Source of the DNA: Brachyspira sp. SAP_772
GTDB taxonomy: Bacteria; Spirochaetota; Brachyspiria; Brachyspirales; Brachyspiraceae
DNA: 64,000 bases
Assembly (NCBI RefSeq): GCF_009755885.1
Contig: NZ_VYIX01000001.1
Coordinates: 732,157-796,156 of the forward strand
Direction of reading: 5' to 3'
Below, piece after piece: positions 50,608 through 54,281 of this stretch. The notes beneath the pieces are model-generated. The model did not search any database and was not told the DNA's origin. It saw only the letters and a list, made by a program, of their open reading frames with translations. The number at the start of each line of letters is the position of its first letter. The stretch's first letter is position 1. The position numbers and the translations under genes were made by a program.

Positions 50608-50704
50608 TTTTTGTCCTTTCTATATAATAGAATAGATTTTAACATAAATATTTTTTTGTTACAAATTTACCTAATATCATAAACATATTCATTTATTAAT
50701 TTTT

Positions 50705-51473
50705 CTACTTAATTAAAATTAATATTTTTTTTATTTTAAATACTCCTAATGTATCTGCTTTTTCTACAATATCTAAGTAATTGAGTAGTACATTATAATA
50801 TTCTCTATTAAAGAAATCATGTATTATAATTACAGCATTTCTACAATAAAATATGCTATTTAATACACAAGCAACTCTAAATCTACCATCAACAAGTATA
50901 GTATCTATATTGTTCATTTCTTCTTTACTCAATTTAGTAAACACATATTTAGAATAATTAGGATATGACTCTCTAGCAGAATCATCTATGGTCTACTCCA
51001 ATCTCCAACTTTTCCTATATCTACATAATAAAATTTTAATCTAGAAGCTTGTTCTGCTTCAAAAATAGTATTATTATTTCTCATATATTCAAGCCAGTTA
51101 GGATCTCCTTCTATAGATATTATATTGGCATTTGTCATTTTTGATACTATAGAAGTACTACCATCAGCTCCAAATTCAATATAATTTTTACTATTTTTTA
51201 TATGTTTTATAAATAATTCTCTCTCAGAATTGCTCATATGAATAGGTAATTTAATATTTAATTTTTCTAAGTTATTTAATATCAGTTCAAAATTTTTAGA
51301 TAAGTTATTTATTTTTTATTTAAATCTTCATATTTTTTATTATTATTTTTCATTTCTTTCAATAATTCGATATTTAAATTAACACTATAGATTAAGTATT
51401 CCCTAACAGCATTTCTTAAATTTTTAAAAGGTATCCACCAGACTATTTTATTCATTATTTCATCTATGTTCAT
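50705..51473 (-). pseudogene. SAM-methyltransferase-like gene broken by two 1-base deletions
   Basis: Three frames in succession make one coherent protein of about 256 aa. It starts at ATG 51473 behind AGGAG with 'MNIDEIMNKIVWWIPFKNLR', continues with a coiled coil, then 'NYIEFGADGSTSIVSKMTNANIISIEGDPNWLEYM' (a Rossmann-type SAM-binding opening), 'KLSKEEMNNIDTILVDGRFRVACVLN' and 'FNREYYNVLLNYLDIVEKADTLGVFKI'. The first break is in an A6 run (51312-51317 as T6 on the plus strand): seven A would restore 'EDLNKKINNLSKNF'. The second is near 50986-50990: one more A restores 'SRPIDDSARESYPNYSKY'. Both breaks are single-base losses. It could be a real decayed gene, a slippage-controlled gene or a sequencing error. 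Confidence 0.75.
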
Positions 51474-51506
51474 AATATCTCCTATGCAAATAAATTTATG
51501 CAATAA

Positions 51507-51545
51507 ACAACCTATGCTACATTTTTTGAATGTAACATAGGTTGT
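51507..51545 (-). terminator. Hairpin between the repeat-tailed gene and the methyltransferase-like gene
   Basis: ACAACCTATGCTACAT (51507-51522) and ATGTAACATAGGTTGT (51530-51545) form a 16-bp stem with one G-T pair and a 7-base loop. On the minus strand the following TTTATTGC is only moderately T-rich, so it may be a partial terminator or attenuator. On the plus strand it is followed by AATTTTTTAG. Confidence 0.6.
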
Positions 51546-51594
51546 AATTTTTTAGTTTTTAAATTATTATAAACCTGTATGTACTCTTTACATA

Positions 51595-54144
51595 TTATTT
51601 CTGGTCTGGTCTGGTCTGGTCTGGTCTGGTCTGGTCTGGTCTTATTTTAAATTTAGACCTAAAACTTTCACGCCACTTTTTTACTGGTATCCACCAAGCT
51701 ATTTTATTAATACTATTTTCATTAACTCTAAAAGTAAATTTTATTCCAAACAAATATGCAAAAATATAATTATTTGTATTATAAATTCCAAAAAATTTTA
51801 TCCAATTTCTATTTTCTCTAATTTCATTAATTAATTTCATTTTTTCATTATTAAGTCTTATCAATTCATCACTTATCTGATTTATTCTATTATCTAATTT
51901 TGGAATTATATTTTTATTTAATTTACTAATATTAATTTTTAACTCATTATTTTCTTTTATAAGTATATTTATAATATTAGTTTTATAATCATCATCTTTT
52001 ATTTTTTTATCAGAATACAAAGCATTTTTTATCCATTCTAAAGATCTATCTTTTTCTTTTTCTAAAATATTATTTATTTCGGTATAGTCCATATAGAATA
52101 AAAGTTCATAGTTAATGGCATTGGTTTCATTTACTATATCTTTAGAGATAGGTAAAAGTCTATTTTTTATATCAAATAAATTCAAAATAGAATTTATCCT
52201 ATTTAGGTTGCTTTCATAATAATCATAACGCAAACATAAAAAAGGTTTATTATATATAATAGAAAAACACGTCCCATGAAACCCATCTGTTATAATACAT
52301 GAAGCATTCTTTATTAAAGATAACCACTCTTCAGGTTTTTCTATAAAACCATCACTTCTATGATTTGAAAATATAACTTTTTTATTTATTTTTAAAGCTA
52401 TTTCATTAACAACTTCTTTCACTTTTTCTTTACTATGTACATAACAAAAAATATAATCCGATATATTTTCATCATTATAAATCAACTTATCATATTCTTT
52501 TCTATCTATTAAAAATACAGGATCTAATACAAAATCTGATTTTATATTTAAATTCTCATTAAAAAAATTAACTGTTTTCTTTTCTCTAATGGAAATATAA
52601 TCAAATAATGATAAATAATATTTCACAGTTTGATTGTATACATAGTCTGAGTATAATTTTTGATTATCATCACCTACAGAAGTAGAAATAGCTATCTTTT
52701 TCTTGCTATTTTCCACAAATTCTAAAAAATATATATATTTACTATAATCAGATACCATATCTCTAGATAAAAAATTGTTCCATAATTGATCCGAAGCTGT
52801 TATGAACATATCACATTTATTATTCAATTCATGTAAAGATTCTTTATTTATATTATCAAATATATTAACATAATATTTTTCAGCGAATTCTCTAGCAATT
52901 CCTTTACTATAATAATTATACATGTTAGCATCTTTATCTAGTGTATCTAATACTAATATTGAAAAACCAAGATTTTCTAATAATTTATATAAAGCATAAT
53001 ATGTTAATATAGCACCATAGTTATTAGCAAACCAAAAACCTACTAAACATATATCAAATTTGTCATAATTTAAGAATAATTCCTTTAAACTCTCTTTGTC
53101 AAAATTATCAAAAAAATATTTTCTATTCCCTAATACTTTGATTTTTCCATTTATTCCTCCATTTGAAGGTTTTATAGAAGTAACATTCTTATAGGTAAAA
53201 GAACTATTTATAATATCGAATATATATTTAGCTTTTTTGCTATTTATTAATGTAAGACCTACTCCCTTATTATCATTATCTTTTACACCCCAATAATCAC
53301 CAATACTAATATCTCCAACCCTTTCATATTTTCTATATTTACAACGTAAACATTCTTCTTTCACAGATATATGTTTTAAAAATGATTGTATATAAATATC
53401 ATAACAACCCCTAGATATATATTCTCTATTATCCCATTTAATATATATCTTATGATCAGCATTCCAACCAAATTTTTCTTTATCTCTAAAACTAACATAC
53501 TCTATATTTTTAATTTCTTCATCTGTAAATAATTCTTTTAAATACTTTTTCCAAACTTTTTGAGGTACTATACTATTACAAAGCAAATCAACTGTAATTA
53601 AATTATCATAATCTTTTCCTAAATAAGAGTATAAAGCAGATACCTGGCAAGGACATCCGCTAAATAATACTTGCTTTTTTTCATTAAGTAATTTTTTTAT
53701 TTCTAAAAAAGTATTTCTTAAACTACTTTCTATATATTTAGAGCCTCTTAATTTATCTAAATCTTGTTCATTATTAATTATAATATGCTCAACTCCAAGC
53801 CAATCTTTAGTAAAAGCAGCTCCACATACATAACCATTATTTTCCAATACATAATTAGCTAATATAGTAAACATACCGCCTGATGAACTTTTCATCCTTA
53901 TATCATCACTAGCTCTAACATCATATATTTCTTGTTTGAAATTGGTTTTAAAATTATCATTCAAAGCATGACATTTTTTTACACACAAACCGCAATTTGT
54001 ACATCTATCTTCATCTATTAGAGGATAACGAAATCCTTCTTTTGTCTCTATCATTTCTATAGCATTATGAGGACATACTTTTTCACAAACAGAACAACCA
54101 GTACATTCTATTTTATTTAAAATATCTATACTATTATTTTTCAC
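51595..54144 (-). CDS. Ferredoxin/FrhB-type flavin-iron-sulfur module fused to polysaccharide pyruvyl transferase
   Basis: The 849-aa protein joins several parts. Residues 12-60 hold two 4Fe-4S motifs ('CTGCSVCEKVCP', 'CTNCGLCVKKC'). About 75-345 is a coenzyme-F420-hydrogenase beta (FrhB_FdhB) N plus C module ('SSSGGMFTILANYVLENNGYVCGAAF', 'LFSGCPCQVSALYSYLG', 'CLRCKYRKYERVGDISIGDYWGV'). About 365-660 is a polysaccharide pyruvyl transferase ('VGFWFANNYGAILTYYALYKLLENLG', 'SLIKNASCIITDGFHGTCFSII'). About 715-770 is a coiled coil, followed by an 'INKIAWWIPVKKWRESFR' module. The end is 'RPDQT' repeats from a 5-bp repeat, then TAA. It likely modifies surface glycan with an oxidised or pyruvylated sugar. 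It is a single gene downstream of lysS. Confidence 0.85.
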   Translation of the reverse strand: MKNNSIDILNKIECTGCSVCEKVCPHNAIEMIETKEGFRYPLIDEDRCTNCGLCVKKCHALNDNFKTNFKQEIYDVRASDDIRMKSSSGGMFTILANYVLENNGYVCGAAFTKDWLGVEHIIINNEQDLDKLRGSKYIESSLRNTFLEIKKLLNEKKQVLFSGCPCQVSALYSYLGKDYDNLITVDLLCNSIVPQKVWKKYLKELFTDEEIKNIEYVSFRDKEKFGWNADHKIYIKWDNREYISRGCYDIYIQSFLKHISVKEECLRCKYRKYERVGDISIGDYWGVKDNDNKGVGLTLINSKKAKYIFDIINSSFTYKNVTSIKPSNGGINGKIKVLGNRKYFFDNFDKESLKELFLNYDKFDICLVGFWFANNYGAILTYYALYKLLENLGFSILVLDTLDKDANMYNYYSKGIAREFAEKYYVNIFDNINKESLHELNNKCDMFITASDQLWNNFLSRDMVSDYSKYIYFLEFVENSKKKIAISTSVGDDNQKLYSDYVYNQTVKYYLSLFDYISIREKKTVNFFNENLNIKSDFVLDPVFLIDRKEYDKLIYNDENISDYIFCYVHSKEKVKEVVNEIALKINKKVIFSNHRSDGFIEKPEEWLSLIKNASCIITDGFHGTCFSIIYNKPFLCLRYDYYESNLNRINSILNLFDIKNRLLPISKDIVNETNAINYELLFYMDYTEINNILEKEKDRSLEWIKNALYSDKKIKDDDYKTNIINILIKENNELKINISKLNKNIIPKLDNRINQISDELIRLNNEKMKLINEIRENRNWIKFFGIYNTNNYIFAYLFGIKFTFRVNENSINKIAWWIPVKKWRESFRSKFKIRPDQTRPDQTRPDQK
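51600..51642 (-). repeat. Pentanucleotide simple-sequence repeat, 8 units (TCTGG on plus, CCAGA on minus)
   Basis: Eight perfect copies of a 5-bp unit plus three bases lie at the very end of the coding frame of the fusion gene. Since 5 is not a multiple of 3, each unit gained or lost shifts the frame. In the present 8-unit state the frame closes three bases after the repeat. It is the only such repeat seen in the window. Confidence 0.95.
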
Positions 54145-54281
54145 AAATTACTCCATTTATTATAATTTTTTGATTAGCTTGCTTGCTTTAATAAAGTATA
54201 AAGCTAAATAATTTAATTTATTTGATATATTCATACACTATTATTATATAATAAAATAATATTAATATCAAATAAATTTCA

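Follow-up and report, generated by a model that had tools for sequence, protein, structure and literature searches.

The fusion enzyme gene and its 3' end

The window, which is the whole stretch of 64,000 nucleotides of Brachyspira DNA that was analyzed, contains a gene for an 849-residue protein in which FrhB_FdhB N- and C-terminal domains, with a 4Fe-4S domain, are joined to a polysaccharide pyruvyl transferase (PS_pyruv_trans) domain. A preliminary description of this DNA had called the gene a fusion enzyme, and the domains found bear that out. The last residues of the protein are encoded by a CCAGA array, which is followed by an intrinsic terminator hairpin and a methyltransferase-like gene (Table 1).

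Table 1. Features at the fusion enzyme locus; positions refer to the window unless a locus name precedes them
Feature	Position	Strand	Remarks
Promoter-like TTGATA-17-TATAAT	54243..54271	minus	precedes the leader ORF
Leader ORF, MNISNKLNYLALYFIKASKLIKKL then stop	54160..54234	minus	lies 5' of the fusion gene; contains a remnant (AAGC)3 tract
Fusion gene, 849 aa	51595..54144	minus	4Fe-4S/FrhB_FdhB domains and polysaccharide pyruvyl transferase
(CCAGA)8 array	51600..51639	minus	eight perfect units, in the last codons of the fusion gene
Stop, present 8-unit state	51595..51597	minus	49 nt before the hairpin
Stop, 9-unit state	51588..51590	minus	42 nt before the hairpin
Stop, 7-unit state	51512..51514	minus	within the 3' arm of the hairpin
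Conserved module, about 108 nt	51498..51605	minus	match to model R1, 99.9 bits
Intrinsic terminator hairpin	51507..51545	minus	-22.5 kcal/mol; arms preserved by paired changes across relatives
Downstream gene, methyltransferase-like	50670..51473	minus	first ATG at 51473, 33 nt past the hairpin
Intact homologue of the downstream gene	L189:9421-10203

The array is a tandem repeat within a translated ORF, and its unit length is no multiple of three. TRF delimits it at 51600-51642, with a period of 5, 8.6 copies, and a match of 100%. Because a unit of five and a codon of three are coprime, the array encodes (PDQTR)n in each of the three frames, and only the residues 3' of the array differ. When the copy number was changed in silico, eight units (likewise 5 or 11) gave an end in PDQK, nine units (likewise 6) an end in RNNM, and seven units (likewise 10) an extension of 29 residues, EIICKEYIQVYNNLKTKKLQPMLHSKNVA, with a stop inside the hairpin. 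The preliminary description had claimed that eight minus-strand units close the fusion frame, that the unit number modulo 3 sets three exits, and that the long exit ends in the 3' arm of the hairpin; all three points proved exact. The frame changes without N-terminal truncation, and the ORF that holds the array is the enzyme gene itself, with no dedicated short leader peptide under its own promoter. Array-less homologues of the fusion enzyme (G006 and G021) stop just ahead of the repeat, ending in KFK.

Two CCAGA arrays are present in the genome from which the window derives. The same genome contains a second, partial copy of the fusion enzyme (L213, G000:C1:52712-53782), which matches residues 1-360 at 68% identity and is disrupted by two stop codons, one TAG and one TAA. 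In G023, a homologue of the fusion gene (L182:5200-5600, minus strand) carries in its C-terminal part a long in-frame repeat (DKISNGIYS and onward) that ends in an inverted copy, and the end of that gene is apparently broken.

The hairpin 3' of the array folds with a z score of -7.3 relative to dinucleotide shuffles, and it closes a conserved module of about 108 nt composed of a small palindrome, an A+T-rich spacer with one open frame, and the terminator. The U-tract of the window hairpin, TTATTGCA, is weaker than that of most relatives. The downstream gene, called methyltransferase-like in the preliminary description, is broken here: along an intact 261-residue relative, its successive pieces match in frames 3, 2, 1, and 3, each at 64-92% identity. 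Barring an assembly error, the gene thus contains two frameshifts or more. With eight units, the switch is predicted to be in its OFF state. Given the frameshifted target and the weak U-tract, the window copy may be a decayed, possibly dead, example of a working family.

A short leader ORF preceded by a promoter-like sequence lies upstream of the fusion gene. The homologous leader in G007 (L189) contains 35 AAGC units and then the same terminator module, and the window gene, with its remnant (AAGC)3 tract, may thus formerly have been under a further switch located 5' of it.

Distribution of the module and variation in unit number

Surroundings were catalogued for 54 arrays among relatives in Brachyspira, including B. 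innocens ATCC 29796 and B. alvinipulli ATCC 51933. Arrays with four or more CCAGA units are present in 19 of 25 Brachyspira genomes, whereas 16 genomes that represent other genera of the phylum contain none, and a covariance model of the module, R1, has matches in 22 of 26 Brachyspira genomes. Nearly all catalogued arrays lie at the 3' ends of genes, often past the motif WWIPxxKWRxxFR. In about 50 of the places catalogued the order is the same: the repeat, a spacer of about 55 nt, an intrinsic terminator, and the next gene about 33 nt farther on. The region 3' of the arrays consists of a small palindrome, an A+T-rich spacer, and an intrinsic terminator of the form TTACAACCTATG-loop-GCATAGGTT with a T-run, the arms of which are preserved across relatives by paired changes. 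A terminator scan returned none at 13 of 57 CCAGA arrays.

Among the genes tested, those 5' of the modules encode glycosyltransferases of families 2 and 9, radical SAM proteins, TupA-like ATP-grasp proteins, and FkbM methyltransferases. Those 3' of the modules encode glycosyltransferase 2, NeuB, cytidylyltransferase, and ATP-grasp proteins, FkbM and other methyltransferases, and the same fusion enzyme as in the window. CCAGA repeats were also found in 49 viral contigs; none of the phage records searched resembles the module. A scan of named genomes matched many unrelated genomes and was taken as chance. Several draft contigs of B. innocens (L177, L186, and L197-L202) end at or near CCAGA arrays, and short-read assemblies thus probably miscount or lose such loci.

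The preliminary description had proposed that the unit number varies and had named constancy in relatives as the observation that would count against it. The window array is known from one strain; across the array family, the unit number is not constant. Homologous arrays in nine complete B. hyodysenteriae plasmids were compared, with single arrays assigned to two paralogous amidoligase loci via their downstream flanks. The arrays have 6.8, 8, 8, 8, 9, 10, 10, 11, 11, and 13 units at the first amidoligase locus, 3 (five times), 8, 8, and 11 units at the second, and 4, 9, and 10 (four times) units at a fucosyltransferase locus, which also includes an interrupted array. The flanks are conserved, and all three frames are represented. 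Related species differ as well: at a locus common to B. alvinipulli and G002, with 93% identity upstream, the repeat is 37 and 32 nt long, respectively; one gene stops immediately and the other reads the long tail. We infer that slippage causes this variation.

Exit frames, terminators, and the function of the repeat

Of the 54 repeats whose terminator lies no more than 150 nt away, 53 have both an exit frame that closes before the hairpin and one that stays open to it, compared with 18.6 expected from dinucleotide shuffles of the spacers; as many modules share ancestry, these cases do not count as independent. Among 50 CCAGA modules, 45 have an open long frame and 20 an open next frame, and the third frame is never open. 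When changes in the spacer were placed on a tree by parsimony reconstruction from 42-nt sequences, stop-making changes in the long frame numbered 4 against 9.9 expected (P = 0.026, a modest value), and the other two frames had no such deficit. Synonymous changes in the long frame showed no excess (23 against 22 expected). A deficit of stops without an excess of synonymous changes indicates that openness is maintained rather than the peptide, and selection thus seems to keep the long frame open with its residues mattering little. An earlier pairwise count had pointed to amino acid conservation of the long tail, with more synonymous change and no stops, in a set chosen partly for an intact frame; the reading of a functional peptide was downgraded when the tree count on the spacer alone retained the stop deficit only. 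Hairpin loop lengths in multiples of three were suggestive and were set aside, with L189:651607, L192:9929, and L207 as exceptions. At the (GACAA)n locus L308, no frame reaches the terminator.

The terminators that follow repeats also differ from others in the same sequences in what lies behind them. A co-directional gene begins within 45 nt of the terminator in 24 of 35 cases after repeats versus 4 of 87 other terminators, one of the latter four being an array-less copy of the module. The distance from hairpin to next gene has a median of 33 nt, too little to accommodate a further promoter behind the hairpin, and the next gene is thus probably dependent on read-through. A TATAAT in the spacer of the module was weighed as a possible promoter of the next gene and rejected, as inspection by eye found no -35-like hexamer 15-18 nt away.

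The position occupied by CCAGA can hold other repeat units. Modules without an enzyme gene consist of a start codon, (GACAA)n in a tiny ORF, a spacer, a terminator, and a glycan gene, as observed at L183, L185, L197, L178, L313, L317, and other loci; at L178, the leader precedes a homologue of the fusion enzyme in the window. Upstream of several (GACAA)n leaders lies TTGACA-16-TATAAT or a near match, and a dedicated short leader with its own promoter match is found at several (GACAA)n loci and at one (AAGC)n locus. That three unrelated repeat units occupy one architectural position speaks for a function of that position, and since no enzyme is part of the (GACAA)n and (AAGC)n leaders, its role there cannot be the choice of an enzyme tail.

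On these comparisons of sequence, the array, spacer, and hairpin probably form a phase-variable, translation-coupled transcription attenuator. Slippage would alter the number of CCAGA units. With eight or nine units (n = 2 or 0 modulo 3), ribosomes would release the mRNA 42-49 nt ahead of the hairpin, which would then fold behind RNA polymerase and stop transcription. With seven units (n = 1 modulo 3), the ribosome would translate into the hairpin and block its folding, and transcription would continue into the next gene, which starts 33 nt on, a distance too short for a separate promoter. The enzyme would be barely altered. We infer both the blocking of the hairpin by the ribosome and its effect on transcript level. 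The likely function of the repeat is control of termination by the reading frame and, less likely, a choice of C terminus, so of the proposal in the preliminary description that the repeat offers three C termini, the existence of three exits stood, but as the purpose of the device, terminator control is likelier.

It is unlikely that the repeat serves mainly to pick one of three tails, with the long tail (ending KLQPMLQYKIAA) altering the activity, stability, or location of a glycan enzyme. The open long frame in 45 of 50 modules would suit such a role, as would the AA or VA that still precedes the stop in modules with a degraded hairpin (e.g., L186:3935 and L210:3826) and the several module length changes that are multiples of three; the missing synonymous excess on the tree, the array-less homologues that end ahead of the repeat, and the leaders that contain no enzyme all speak against it. 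Still less probable is that the repeats and terminator are homology tracts at the ends of genes for shuffling or duplicating glycan genes and that the effects on frame are incidental. The same module does follow unrelated genes (glycosyltransferases, radical SAM, TupA-like ATP-grasp, and FkbM methyltransferase), and some copies are near identical within one genome, but shuffling does not predict that 53 of 54 pairs keep a frame open as far as the terminator, that the next gene lies so close, or that unrelated repeats sit in the same place. Recombination may have a role alongside attenuation.

Two further explanations are very improbable. Ribosomes in the long frames could finish close to the start codon of the next gene, or beyond it, and feed initiation there, with termination of minor importance; frame C of several modules indeed stops near or beyond the next start (at L188 the exit is at +152 and the next start at about +126), but the window has a single long frame, which ends 38 nt before the next ATG, and the preservation of the hairpin by paired changes is a further point against such coupling. 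The tract could also be neutral or selfish, slippery without function. Simple repeats expand by themselves, and the window copy precedes a broken gene, but the same anatomy recurs at many loci, with unrelated repeat units in the same position.

Should attenuation be at work, repeats that lie past the catalytic part of an enzyme and seem harmless would control the next gene, and standard searches for phase-variable genes, which are based on truncation, would miss them. The window gene is a sugar-coat gene of a gut spirochaete, and its repeat is probably a random genetic switch for the next gene; phase variation of surface sugars lets many gut bacteria evade immunity and phages. With somewhat less confidence than for the attenuator itself, we think it likely that in Brachyspira the 3' ends of ordinary enzyme genes act as phase-variable leaders for the next gene, that glycan clusters carry several independent terminator switches, the combinations of which would diversify the cell surface, and that this arrangement is genus-wide and employs at least three repeat units.

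Comparison with known systems

The coupling of repeat-dependent frame to a terminator, which the preliminary description had expected to be new, has a tested earlier case in the pil1/pil3 loci of Streptococcus gallolyticus (Danne et al. 2014, PMC3894217), the one streptococcal species from which the principle is known in the open literature searched. In pil1, which has GCAGA repeats, a leader stop 39-49 bp before the hairpin gives low expression and a stop within the hairpin high expression, and switching requires both translation of the leader and the terminator (PMC3894217). In Escherichia coli, one base inserted at the 3' end of a gene brings the stop closer to a terminator, from 28 bp to 5 bp ahead of it, and lowers termination from about 90% to under 10% (PMC4824070), an engineered counterpart of slippage at a 3' end. 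The coupling of frame to hairpin that the sequence predicts for the window is strongly supported by comparative anatomy (53 of 54 pairs) and, in other organisms, by published experiments on the same arrangement (PMC3894217 and PMC4824070). The open literature searched contains nothing on such repeats, or on phase variation of surface sugars, in Brachyspira. If the switches work, the chief novelty would be that a full-length gene provides, with its 3' end, the leader for the gene behind it; the occurrence in a spirochaete, the number of loci, and the several repeat units would be new as well.

Short-tandem-repeat slippage in the coding DNA of surface-glycan genes is shared with the 5' ON/OFF tracts of Haemophilus, Neisseria, and Campylobacter, but in contrast to those classical contingency loci, the Brachyspira tract is located at the 3' end and changes frame without truncating the gene. 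Tracts of classical appearance are also found in Brachyspira. In B. alvinipulli (L196:8171-9875, minus strand), an N6_N4_Mtase DNA methylase gene has a CCAGA array directly after its start codon and is in the OFF frame in the assembly, which makes it a candidate classical phase-variable methyltransferase. At L309, L310, L312, and L315, (GACAA)n lies shortly after the start codon of a longer ORF, with a perfect TTGACA-16-TATAAT promoter in three of the four cases, and all four are candidate classical ON/OFF loci.

In pyrBI-type attenuation of enterobacteria, translation into the terminator prevents its folding in response to the UTP level. Entry of translation into the terminator is proposed to have the same effect in Brachyspira; unlike in pyrBI, the proposed control is genetic, through slippage.

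Similar to pil1/pil3, the window locus has a five-base repeat within a translated ORF, its frame sets the translation stop either approximately 40-50 nt before or within an intrinsic terminator, and surface genes follow directly. The unit number, which differs between strains in pil1/pil3, does so in Brachyspira at homologous arrays on B. hyodysenteriae plasmids. The main differences are that the proposed Brachyspira system belongs to another phylum, uses another unit, occupies many loci per genome, and precedes glycan rather than pilus genes. In addition, pil1/pil3 have a dedicated leader peptide, whereas the ORF in the window is a full-length 849-residue enzyme gene in a cluster; dedicated-leader versions that resemble pil1 are formed in Brachyspira by the GACAA and AAGC repeats. 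Lacking a dedicated short leader, the window locus would thus be a variant of the pil1-type phase-variable leader attenuator rather than a plain member.
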